This document shows positions 15,444 to 39,452 of a stretch of DNA of 64,000 nucleotides, piece by piece. The notes beneath the pieces were generated by a model. The model did not search any database. It saw only the letters and a program-made list of their open reading frames with translations, and was not told the origin of the DNA. Source of the DNA: Psychromonas sp. L1A2 (GTDB taxonomy: Bacteria > Pseudomonadota > Gammaproteobacteria > Enterobacterales > Psychromonadaceae); contig NZ_WUAG01000002.1 of NCBI RefSeq assembly GCF_009828855.1, forward strand, positions 1,550,001 to 1,614,000, in the 5' to 3' direction. Each line of letters starts with the position of its first letter. The stretch's first letter is position 1. The position numbers and the translations under genes were made by a program.

Positions 15444-15521
15444 TTAAATTCCTTTTTAATTCTAACCTAATGATTTATTTAGGTTTTACTTTATCCCATT
15501 ACTATTATTTATTATCCAGCA

Positions 15522-15851
15522 CTATTCTTTATCTTTTTTATCTTCAAGCAGCCCAGCTATTGGTTCTTTATTATTATCCTCACCATCAGTTTTCACCCAT
15601 TCAGCTTCTGAATCAATAATATCTTTATCTCTCGCACCTTTCTTAATATTGACTAACCCGACAAGTAAAAAGCCATTAGCAAAAACGGAGATAAAAGCGG
15701 TAGGAAAAATAAGAATACGAGGAGCAAAAAATAAAAGAAGAATGCCAATAATAATTGTACCAAAACAAAAACCTATCCATGCAATGCCGGCTGCAATAGC
15801 GAGAACCCATAACATGATGCCGACAATGAGTTGTATCCAACCTAATATCAT
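15522..15851 (-). CDS. Small membrane protein, unknown
   Basis: A 109-residue protein with two or three close hydrophobic segments over residues 1-70 and a charged, acidic/lysine-rich tail (KKGARDKDII and EDKKDKE). The frame fits the local codon use, but no good ribosome-binding site is seen before the ATG. No family recognised. The 15852-16165 gap upstream holds only AT-rich promoter-type sequence. Confidence 0.5.
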   Translation of the reverse strand: MILGWIQLIVGIMLWVLAIAAGIAWIGFCFGTIIIGILLLFFAPRILIFPTAFISVFANGFLLVGLVNIKKGARDKDIIDSEAEWVKTDGEDNNKEPIAGLLEDKKDKE

Positions 15852-16180
15852 AAAAATAACCTAATCGAATAAAATACAAAATAAGATAAAAAGCAGCTTA
15901 GTAAAATAAAGCTACGTCACTTTGGTTGACCATAACAACCTGAAAGTTTTAATCAATGCACAATCAAGTTAATTTAGTTACGAATAAAATAAAAAGCATA
16001 CAATGGGTAGAATTAATCAAAAAAAGGCATTAATTACTCGCTGTTTTTAGATTCGAATAAATCAAATAATTTAAGTCTTTATTCACTTAGTTTTTTAAAA
16101 CCATCAATTGATCCTCCTCATAACGTAACTGTGACACAAACACTACACTGAGGAACTCTTTATTATTGTTCGAGGTTAAC

Positions 16181-36755: not shown

Positions 36756-37835
36756 ATGAAATTAAAACTTATTGTATCGTTTATTATTGGCGCAGCTCTT
36801 TCAATGGCGGTACTTGCGGACACAATTAAACTAAAAGCAGATCATCCCGATACTTATACCGTTAAAAAAGGCGACACTCTCTGGGGAATTTCATCTGTAT
36901 TTTTAAATAGTCCGTGGTTATGGCCACATTTATGGGAAAATAATAGTCAAATAGAAAACCCTGACTTAATTTACCCTGGTGATATTTTAAATCTTATATG
37001 GGTGGATGGAGAACCTAGATTAACTCGCAAACGATTAAAAAAATTATCGCCAATTCCTCGTTTACAAGAAAAAACCCAAGCGATTCCTATCATCCCATTA
37101 GAAATGCTTTCTGCCTTCCTATCGAAAGATCACATTATTGATCCTGTTTTATTAGAAGGAACGCCTCGTTTATTAGGTGACTCAGTAGGTTCCCCTCGTT
37201 TCTTTGAAGGTGATATTTTCTATGCAGAAGGCCAATATGATCAAAATAAACTGTATGGTATTTATCGTTTAGGTAAAGATTATAAAGGACCAACTGGCAA
37301 AAACTTAGGAACTGAATTAATCTTTATCGGACAATCACAAGTATCACAAAGTCCAAATGTAGATACGACAGATAAAGTAACGCCACATGATTTAATTAAG
37401 AGTGCTCGAGAAGCGCGTCAAGGTGACTTAATTATAGCAATTCCAGAGTATGAAACGATACCTGCTTACTTTATTCCTAAACCAGTGCCAAAAAGTACTA
37501 AAGGCAATATATTAGCAGCAGTAAACAACTCTGCGGCGATTGGTAAATGGGATATTGTGGTTATTGATAAAGGCAAACAAGACGACATTCAAATCGGCTC
37601 AATGTTTTCTATCTTACGTTCAGGACAGGCATTATTAGTAAACGATGAAGAAATTCTTTATAAAGAAGATAGTAATGCATTTGACCAATTAGGCGACGCG
37701 GATTTAAGACTTCCAGCAGAACGTGTTGGTGAGTTAATGGTATTTAAAGTTTATGAAAATTTAAGTATCGCAATACTCATGCGTGGTAATGATGTTATTG
37801 GTTCTACATACAAAATTGAAGGGTTAGCATTTTAA
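36756..37835 (+). CDS. Exported LysM-domain protein (upstream of dprA)
   Basis: A 359-residue protein with a signal peptide (about residues 1-21, ending VLA) and one LysM peptidoglycan-binding domain (about 32-85: YTVKKGDTLWGISSVFL ... NPDLIYPGDIL). The long C-terminal region has no recognised enzyme. Genes of this type are commonly found between def and dprA in marine gammaproteobacteria. It probably binds peptidoglycan in the periplasm. It is followed 31 bases later by the dprA start. Confidence 0.85.
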   Translation: MKLKLIVSFIIGAALSMAVLADTIKLKADHPDTYTVKKGDTLWGISSVFLNSPWLWPHLWENNSQIENPDLIYPGDILNLIWVDGEPRLTRKRLKKLSPIPRLQEKTQAIPIIPLEMLSAFLSKDHIIDPVLLEGTPRLLGDSVGSPRFFEGDIFYAEGQYDQNKLYGIYRLGKDYKGPTGKNLGTELIFIGQSQVSQSPNVDTTDKVTPHDLIKSAREARQGDLIIAIPEYETIPAYFIPKPVPKSTKGNILAAVNNSAAIGKWDIVVIDKGKQDDIQIGSMFSILRSGQALLVNDEEILYKEDSNAFDQLGDADLRLPAERVGELMVFKVYENLSIAILMRGNDVIGSTYKIEGLAF

Positions 37836-37866
37836 ACTACTTGCTCTTTAATTAAGAGAGGTTGTT

Positions 37867-38976
37867 ATTCAAAAAAATCTATTTGAACATGATGCCATTG
37901 TAAATTCTCTTTATTGCTGGATAGCACTTGATGCTATTCCAGCACTTCAAAAGCGTAAAATTTTCACACTCCTATCTCATTATTCAATTGAACAACTCTT
38001 TCAACTTAATAAGCAACAATTAACGGCCCTTCACCTCAAACCCGAACAAATCACTGCTTTTTTACAGCCTAATAAAGCACATATTCAATCTTGTTTAGAT
38101 TGGCAAGAAAATGCAGATGATCGGAATATTATCAGCTATGGCGATCAACGTTACCCTCCATTATTGAAACAGATAAGTAGCCCTCCGTTATTATTATTCA
38201 CTCAAGGTAACTTAACCTTATTAAACTCCCCACAAATAGCGATTATTGGGAGTCGAAGTTGTACACCCTATGGCAAAGAAAAAGCTCATGACCTAGCACA
38301 GCAACTCTCTAAAGTAGGTTTAACCATTACCAGTGGGTTAGCGATAGGTGTTGATGGCATGGCTCATCAAGGTGCTTTAACAGAAATCGGTTCGACGGTT
38401 GCGGTATTGGGAACTGGTTTAAATAATATCTACCCTAAACGCCATACTTCACTGGCCACAGCGATTCGTGAAAAAGGATTATTAATCTCAGAGTTTTGGC
38501 CAGATACGCCAGCCTACCCAAGTAACTTTCCCAGACGTAATCGTATTATCTCAGGTTTAAGTCTTGGGACTTTGGTGATAGAGGCATCGCTAAGAAGCGG
38601 TTCATTAATTACAGCACGTTATGCGGCAGAGCAAAATAGAGAAGTCTTTGCTTTGCCTGGGTCGGTGGATAACCCCCAAGCATGTGGCTGTTTAAAGTTA
38701 ATTCAACAAGGTGCAAAATTAATATTGAATAGTGATGATATTATTAATGAATTTCCTGCATTAAATTTATTGCAATCAACCGCTATAGCACAACCTTACC
38801 CAGCTAAAAGTCAATCCCCTTTGCTATCATTAATTGACTATAATCTAACCAGTTTTGAAACAATTTTAGCCCGTAGTGGAATGGATGTAGTGAGCTTACA
38901 AAATGAGTTAATAGAATTAGAGATAAATGGTATAATTAACGTCCAACCGCAAGGTTACACCAAGTTAAAAGGTTAG
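37867..38976 (+). CDS. dprA: DNA processing protein DprA, apparent AUU start
   Basis: A 369-residue DprA/Smf: N-terminal helical region (WIALDAIPALQKRK), Rossmann core (IAIIGSRSCTPYG, TSGLAIGVDGMAH, SEFWPDTPAYPSNFPRRNRIISGLS, GSLITARYAAEQ) and a C-terminal winged helix. It loads RecA on incoming single-stranded DNA in transformation. The frame is open from 37852, and no ATG, GTG, TTG or CTG occurs before a TTG at 38164, which would remove about 100 conserved residues. An ATT at 37867 follows GAGG at 5-base spacing, making AUU the best start; an indel in the A7 run at 37871-37877 is the alternative. Confidence 0.85.
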   Translation: MQKNLFEHDAIVNSLYCWIALDAIPALQKRKIFTLLSHYSIEQLFQLNKQQLTALHLKPEQITAFLQPNKAHIQSCLDWQENADDRNIISYGDQRYPPLLKQISSPPLLLFTQGNLTLLNSPQIAIIGSRSCTPYGKEKAHDLAQQLSKVGLTITSGLAIGVDGMAHQGALTEIGSTVAVLGTGLNNIYPKRHTSLATAIREKGLLISEFWPDTPAYPSNFPRRNRIISGLSLGTLVIEASLRSGSLITARYAAEQNREVFALPGSVDNPQACGCLKLIQQGAKLILNSDDIINEFPALNLLQSTAIAQPYPAKSQSPLLSLIDYNLTSFETILARSGMDVVSLQNELIELEINGIINVQPQGYTKLKG

Positions 38977-38978
38977 TT

Positions 38979-39452
38979 ATGTTCGAAATTATCATGTATC
39001 TCTTTGAAAGTTATATACAAGTTGACCAAACAATGGAACTTGATACACAAGAGGTGACCGATGAATTAATGCAAGAAGGTTTTCAAAAGTCAGATATAAC
39101 CAAAGCGTTGGCTTGGTTAGACAACCTTGCAAACATGCATAGCCAAGAGCCTCAAACGAGAGCTACAGCAGAAAAAAAGACATCGCACCGTATTTATAAC
39201 AAACAAGAACAACGTCAAATATCTTTAGAATGTCGTAATTACATTCACTACTTAGAAGAAGCAAAAATATTAACCACACACACTCGTGAAATGGTCATTG
39301 ATTGCATCATGTCTTTAGACAGTGGTGAATTGATATTAGAAGATGTGAAATGGCTTATACTCATGGTTTTATTTAATGACCCTGTTAGCGATGATGCATT
39401 CTTACAATTAGAATCAATGCTAATGGATTTTGAAGACGGATTAATTCATTAA
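38979..39452 (+). CDS. smg: Smg family protein (DUF494)
   Basis: A 157-residue acidic, mostly helical protein of the Smg/DUF494 family, recognised by MFEIIMYLFESYI at the start and by its place directly after dprA. The function is not established. Only two bases separate it from dprA. Confidence 0.9.
   Translation: MFEIIMYLFESYIQVDQTMELDTQEVTDELMQEGFQKSDITKALAWLDNLANMHSQEPQTRATAEKKTSHRIYNKQEQRQISLECRNYIHYLEEAKILTTHTREMVIDCIMSLDSGELILEDVKWLILMVLFNDPVSDDAFLQLESMLMDFEDGLIH

Follow-up and report, generated by a model that had tools for sequence, protein, structure and literature searches.

Where does translation of dprA begin in Psychromonas sp. L1A2, when its reading frame holds no ordinary start codon ahead of the conserved protein? 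An earlier note on this locus had stated that no ATG, GTG, TTG or CTG precedes the core in frame, and the sequence of the window (the whole stretch of 64,000 nucleotides analysed here) bears this out: none of the four codons occurs from the TAA at 37849 up to the tryptophan of the core (codon 18, 37918). The sole near-cognate codon with a well-spaced Shine-Dalgarno (SD) sequence in that stretch is the ATT at 37867. The note's proposal that this codon, with GAGG at five bases, is the start also stands, as ATT was found at the aligned site in 22 of 24 Psychromonas genomes, the others having ATC (G013) and ATG (G022). We therefore read dprA of this marine Psychromonas as starting at AUU 37867, with a probability of about 0.9. 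The features of the locus are listed below.

36756 to 37835, plus strand: LysM-domain gene upstream of dprA, starting with ATG and lying 31 nt before the ATT.
37849 to 37851, plus strand: in-frame TAA, the upstream limit of the dprA frame.
37858 to 37861, plus strand: Shine-Dalgarno core GAGG, 5 nt before the ATT at 37867.
37867 to 37869, plus strand: ATT, putative dprA start codon, from the lack of a standard alternative and the genus alignment.
37912 to 38097, plus strand: SAM-like domain of DprA (PF25317, residues 16-77), profile match.
38119 to 38727, plus strand: DprA core (PF02481, residues 85-287), profile match.
38788 to 38952, plus strand: DprA winged helix (PF17782, residues 308-362), profile match.
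38979 to 39452, plus strand: gene downstream of dprA, starting with ATG, probably smg, whose start codon served as a control.

The dprA frame is open on the plus strand from 37852 to the stop codon at 38974-38976 and comprises 374 codons without an internal stop. Its product scored 263.3 bits against the core model PF02481 (cut-off 29.6), 37.2 against PF25317 (cut-off 27), 29.3 against PF17782 (cut-off 22.9) and 265.7 against TIGR00732 (cut-off 191.15). The NCBIfam model NF008007 (PRK10736.1) gave 332.1 bits, which is under its cut-off of 495; since this model is taken to be the narrower one, the identity of DprA rests on TIGR00732 and the Pfam domains. A profile search of the 4.34 Mb genome found this dprA as the sole PF02481 match. 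All 24 Psychromonas genomes examined carry dprA, with protein identities inside the genus going down to 54%, and the dprA loci bearing names among the relatives were from Psychromonas in 8 of 8 cases. The upstream gene was called lysM on the assumption that its KGDTLW motif and position identify it, and the downstream gene was taken to be smg from its position. A structure prediction of DprA from 9 rows had a mean pLDDT of 43.3 and was too poor for use.

A frame without an early start codon is a rare thing in the window. When shorter ORFs overlapping a longer one by at least 30% were dropped, 54 long ORFs were left, and 52 of them have an ATG, GTG or TTG no more than 35 codons from the preceding stop; the gap in dprA is therefore beyond chance. 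The exceptions were dprA and the ORF at 15466-15864. The latter (plus strand, 132 codons) has no early start codon and is antisense to a minus-strand open frame, perhaps a small membrane protein.

The earliest ATG, GTG or TTG of the dprA frame is the TTG at 38164, which comes 104 codons after the open frame begins and is beyond the N-terminal domain. If translation really began at this first standard codon, DprA would be made without its SAM-like domain, and the solved structures of short DprA chains with 219-229 residues (5mll, 4ljr and 4ljk), which correspond to the core match, would agree with such a protein. However, codons 18-99 were observed to evolve as protein (pS 0.379, pN 0.060), residues 16-77 match PF25317 and no SD was scored before any ATG, GTG or TTG of the dprA frame, so that a start this far downstream is hardly plausible.

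The A7 run at 37871-37877, just behind the site, raises two further readings, both of which involve the TTG at 37862 that is one base out of frame. If the run were really A8, through a sequencing or assembly error, the TTG would come into frame, as the earlier note had pointed out. This turned out to be very unlikely: A7 together with ATT recurs in G009, G020, G012, G003 and G004, relatives without the A-run keep the ATT as well (e.g. G015, G019, G002, G016 and G006), and the TTG would touch the SD directly. Alternatively, as the TTG is upstream of A AAA AAA, a classic slippery stretch, programmed frameshifting or slippage could join a short TTG-started frame to dprA. We give this next to no credence, since many relatives have the same ATT arrangement without the A-run and the TTG lacks a spaced SD. 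The sequencing slip, the frameshift and the far-downstream start were thus all rejected on the relatives and on codon evolution.

With the AUU start as the preferred reading, the next step is its conservation across Psychromonas. The stretch between the stop codon and the core was observed to be without ATG, GTG and TTG in 18 of the 24 genomes, and in 12 of the 24 it is also without CTG. The SD is found at an aligned spacing of 5-6 nt in 20/24, with a spacing of 0 in two genomes, 10 in one and none scored in one. In G015, G019 and G014 an in-frame stop is located three codons ahead of the ATT, which leaves almost no room for an earlier start. The leucine at residue 5 is not a hidden start, because its codon varies across the genus (CTA, TTA, CTG, CTC and CTT). 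The earlier note had DprA conserved back to about residue 10; conservation was confirmed, but within the genus it reaches residue 2 in the 24-genome alignment.

Other candidate codons were observed to be scattered in position. An ATG, GTG or TTG occurs somewhere in the stretch in six genomes, namely as GTG at codon -2 in G021, G017 and G022, as TTG at -8 and GTG at -6 in G008, as TTG at +11 in G017, and as ATG at +10 in G002 and at +14 in G004. CTG was found at +4 in G009, G016, G023, G005 and G001, at +14 in G015 and at -14 in G023. Relatives with an ATG at the site itself, which according to the earlier note would refute the AUU start, are limited to G022 and to the second tail copy of G004. 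The ATG of G022 touches a GGAG and an ATC is found 6 nt after that GGAG. In G004 (L022) the 14-codon dprA tail is tandemly duplicated, with ATT in the first copy and ATG in the second, and no SD was seen before the latter. The second copy is the one placed in the start column of the 24-row protein alignment, which for this reason reads ATT 21, ATG 2 and ATC 1. The two spacings of 0 belong to G005 and G001, where the ATT abuts the SD and an ATC two codons on is better placed; this later ATC may be used as the start in both genomes.

Codon choice alone proves little here, because any conserved isoleucine would likewise show up as ATT, ATC or ATA, and the commonest isoleucine codon in Psychromonas dprA is ATT (372/738). 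The case for the AUU start is made by the absent alternative starts. Among the control genes sought in the same 24 genomes, ATG was observed at the start of smg in 23/23 and of lysM in 19/19 of those found, the pattern having missed one smg and five lysM genes. ATT is present in both halves of the midpoint-rooted genus tree (23 rows, with the partial gene of G001 left out), and together with the range of protein identities this indicates that the ATT is probably old in the genus. From these sequence comparisons, an AUU start together with weak initiation is likely to be the rule for dprA across Psychromonas.

Such starts have company in these genomes. By position, infC starts with ATA, 7-8 nt after GGAG(G), in 21 of 22 Psychromonas loci (L080-L101), the 22nd being cut by a stop, and the start of pcnB, also assigned by position, is ATT in 20 and ATC in 3 of 23 loci (L102-L124). 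The copies in the genome of the window are G000:C1:1664381-1664881 for infC (L094) and G000:C2:457784-459076 for pcnB (L106). AUH starts thus appear to be in use in Psychromonas. In addition, hda was tried as a weak-start parallel inside the genus and was rejected, as it starts with ATG in 23/23 genomes. The E. coli hda gene is taken to use a CUG start, for which our search of the open-licence PMC literature found no confirmation.

Outside Psychromonas, the 5' end of dprA was inspected at 46 loci of other families, taken from 64 matching genomes. An ATG, GTG or TTG was present after the stop and ahead of the profile match in 43 of the 46, and a 44th (G078) has an ATG just inside the match. In family f12 (L025-L028) dprA seems to overlap with the end of the gene before it, and no clear start codon was seen; L026, L027 and L028 offer only a TTG well upstream. 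The remaining two of the 46 loci belong to genus g6 of family f6, which we suspect is perhaps Shewanella. Sixty genomes of g6 were drawn from a larger group and 57 could be scored, G072, G155 and G099 being without the LVDW motif. The codon four before the leucine of LVDW is ATT in 23, ATC in 15 and ATA in 15 genomes, which is 53/57, and the other four have an ATG one codon earlier. An ATG or GTG occurs within the stretch in 6/57 genomes; for example, G109 has an ATG immediately ahead of the ATT and G152 a GTG upstream. A stop immediately precedes the ATH codon in 13 genomes. The SD is located 4-7 nt before the ATH in 48 of the 53, at 3 nt in one, and was not scored in four.

It may be that g6 dprA starts instead at a conserved CTG or TTG four codons after the ATH. 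The leucine codon of LVDW (L162-L221) is CTG or TTG in 56/57 genomes, compared with a 29% share of these codons among dprA leucine codons (30 genomes), and this favours a start there, although no SD was seen at a normal distance before it in g6. Taken from the sequences, it is probable that g6 shares the ATH-start pattern for dprA.

Even when used, the AUU could be without meaning: it might have been fixed once in an ancestor and tolerated since, helped by translational coupling to lysM 31 nt upstream. One change could underlie all AUU cases in the genus, and lysM and dprA are 14-68 nt apart in 15 of the 19 genomes measured. In the other four they are 81-223 nt apart, however, and the AUU has been kept over DprA identities down to the lowest in the genus, even though one base change gives ATG, with a similar pattern in g6. 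We consider mere tolerance unlikely, and selection has rather probably kept the weak start of dprA.

A start at the AUU would add a short N-terminal tail to DprA, composed of two parts.

37870 to 37884, plus strand: codons 2-6 (QKNLF), an island of the form Q-x-[D/N/S/E]-L-[F/L] in the 24-genome alignment and a candidate beta-clamp binding motif.
37885 to 37917, plus strand: codons 7-17, a linker that is variable and indel-rich across the genus in the alignment.

The order after the AUU is therefore the island, a linker variable in both sequence and length, and the core with its W..LD..P pattern. Over the 24 genomes the glutamine of the island is found in 21 and is missing in three, while the leucine and the final F or L are found in all 24; the three occur together in 21/24. 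Codons 2-6 have 5.0 synonymous differences over 19.8 sites (pS 0.252) and 2.0 non-synonymous differences over 85.2 sites (pN 0.023), small numbers from seven close pairs of which three overlap. As pS is larger than pN, the codons right after the ATT appear to be translated.

The beta-clamp binding motif is described as Q-aliphatic-x-[L/M]-[F/L] with a tolerant position 2 in the part of PMC11139829 that deals with it. The strict form was observed in 2/24 genomes (G016 and G023) and the window has K at position 2. This rarity arises because most genomes have K, Q or a different non-aliphatic residue at position 2, and because of the three missing glutamines. Across the remaining ORFs of the window (16,612 residues), Qx[DNS]L[FL] occurs four times. 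Among the 46 other-family DprA frames, clamp-like patterns of five or six residues were found within the first 40 codons in six, one of them a five-residue pattern (QTDLL in G094), so the clamp-like motif is not general in DprA. No link of DprA to the sliding clamp was found in the open-licence PMC literature.

Binding of the DprA tail to the beta-clamp is, on its sequence, a tentative proposal. There is about an even chance that a QxxLF-type tail is a short linear motif of a different kind or caps a helix, and the position 2 residues K, Q, G, H, F or R in 19/24 genomes, as against the strict form, speak for this. On the other side, the tail keeps its Q, L and F while the positions in between are freer, and it sits at a variable N-terminus; in this it resembles known clamp motifs such as that of Hda, described in PMC11139829 (the portion on Hda).

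The RNA around the start was also folded, with one suggestive feature.

37835 to 37866, plus strand: predicted hairpin that would pair the SD region.

The 69-nt stretch holding this hairpin has an MFE of -10.7 kcal/mol (z -1.28), with stronger values in G009 and G020, and the SD is predicted to be mostly paired in G000, G009 and G020. The region of the dprA start was predicted to fold more strongly than those of the two neighbours, with a mean folding z of -1.08 at dprA (24 genomes), +0.25 at smg (15) and +0.28 at lysM (20). We make no claim on RNA structure, as the predicted stems are not the same from clade to clade and the genomes compared are related. Hairpins were also predicted between lysM and dprA in G022 (L019) and in G008 (L021), in the latter directly before the SD.

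A mechanism may be proposed in which dprA would be translated from the AUU behind a normal SD. The initiator tRNA would pair poorly with AUU and IF3 would reject many of the initiation complexes, so that DprA might be made at a low, IF3-sensitive rate, by analogy with infC, sigR (GUC) and pcnB. Non-standard starts are repressed by IF3 according to the section of PMC5472188 on this subject. By this analogy we lean slightly towards IF3 being the sensor at the dprA start. The earlier note had likewise expected strongly limited translation from such a codon, a reading that finds partial support here. Dosage, of which we are less sure, could be the reason for the weak start. DprA levels are reportedly fine-tuned in pneumococcus, going by the title of one study.

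The tail M-Q-x-[D/N/S]-L-[F/L] created by the AUU would then bring DprA, a RecA mediator, to replication forks, where a surplus could interfere with other clients of the clamp, and the weak start might keep the protein scarce. A role in DNA uptake is as possible as a role at forks, because ComEC was found above its cut-off in 23/24 Psychromonas genomes. The complete scheme, in which Psychromonas DprA would be docked to the replisome by an AUU-made clamp tail at an IF3-sensitive low dose that follows the translation state, with g6 having reached or kept the same design, is doubtful when taken as a whole.

The AUU start is of interest beyond this locus. It appears to be conserved and would join a small known kind of weak-start genes; if it is true, infC and pcnB are joined by dprA as another AUH-start gene that is widely kept. 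A genus-wide AUU in a recombination gene would be a naturally occurring example in which to ask if dosage is set by IF3-sensitive starts. Furthermore, annotation that relies on start-codon rules can miss the initial residues of a protein, here a possible clamp motif, and a limit of this kind is stated in the relevant passage of PMC5472188. Which mediator assembles RecA at stalled forks is treated as an open question in the corresponding part of PMC12448304, where DprA is named as a candidate, and a clamp tail on DprA would bear on this question.

The clamp side of the proposal can be compared with two known proteins. E. coli Hda is like DprA in having its clamp motif at the N-terminus, which is disordered in Hda (PMC11139829, in the portion on this protein), but clamp binding has been demonstrated for Hda whereas the motif in DprA is a candidate. 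The RecA mediator RecF binds the clamp DnaN, and its excess is toxic by destabilising replisomes (PMC10287930, in its account of this pair); a clamp-docked DprA could therefore carry a like risk. RecF and DprA are different proteins, and no such clamp interaction was found for DprA in the open-licence PMC literature.

On the side of the start codon, no paper joining dprA with an AUU start was found in the open-licence PMC literature. The part of PMC1780047 on such codons names, in 2007, two experimentally proven AUU starts, those of infC and pcnB in E. coli. It also gives lepA of Borrelia burgdorferi and Bacillus licheniformis, which is like dprA in that its AUU was proposed from sequence, and differs in that two species are named and genus-wide conservation is not mentioned in that part.

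The infC gene is the closest in form, with a near-cognate AUH behind a good SD that is kept in relatives, as AUU in E. coli and AUA in Psychromonas. It is unlike dprA because infC regulates itself through IF3, whereas DprA has no part in translation as a factor and its control by IF3 is putative. An excess of poly(A) polymerase I, the product of pcnB, is harmful. In E. coli the AUU of pcnB lowers expression (PMC1780047, same part), and AUU or AUC is also found in Psychromonas pcnB; the enzyme belongs to another pathway, however, and for dprA the limit on expression is inferred. In Streptomyces, infC starts at ATC, and sigR has a GTC start codon whose repression by IF3 is experimental (both in the passages of PMC5472188 on these genes), which sets sigR apart from dprA. 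The likeness is that sigR, a gene other than infC, has a conserved non-standard start that sets dosage, as the AUU may do for dprA.
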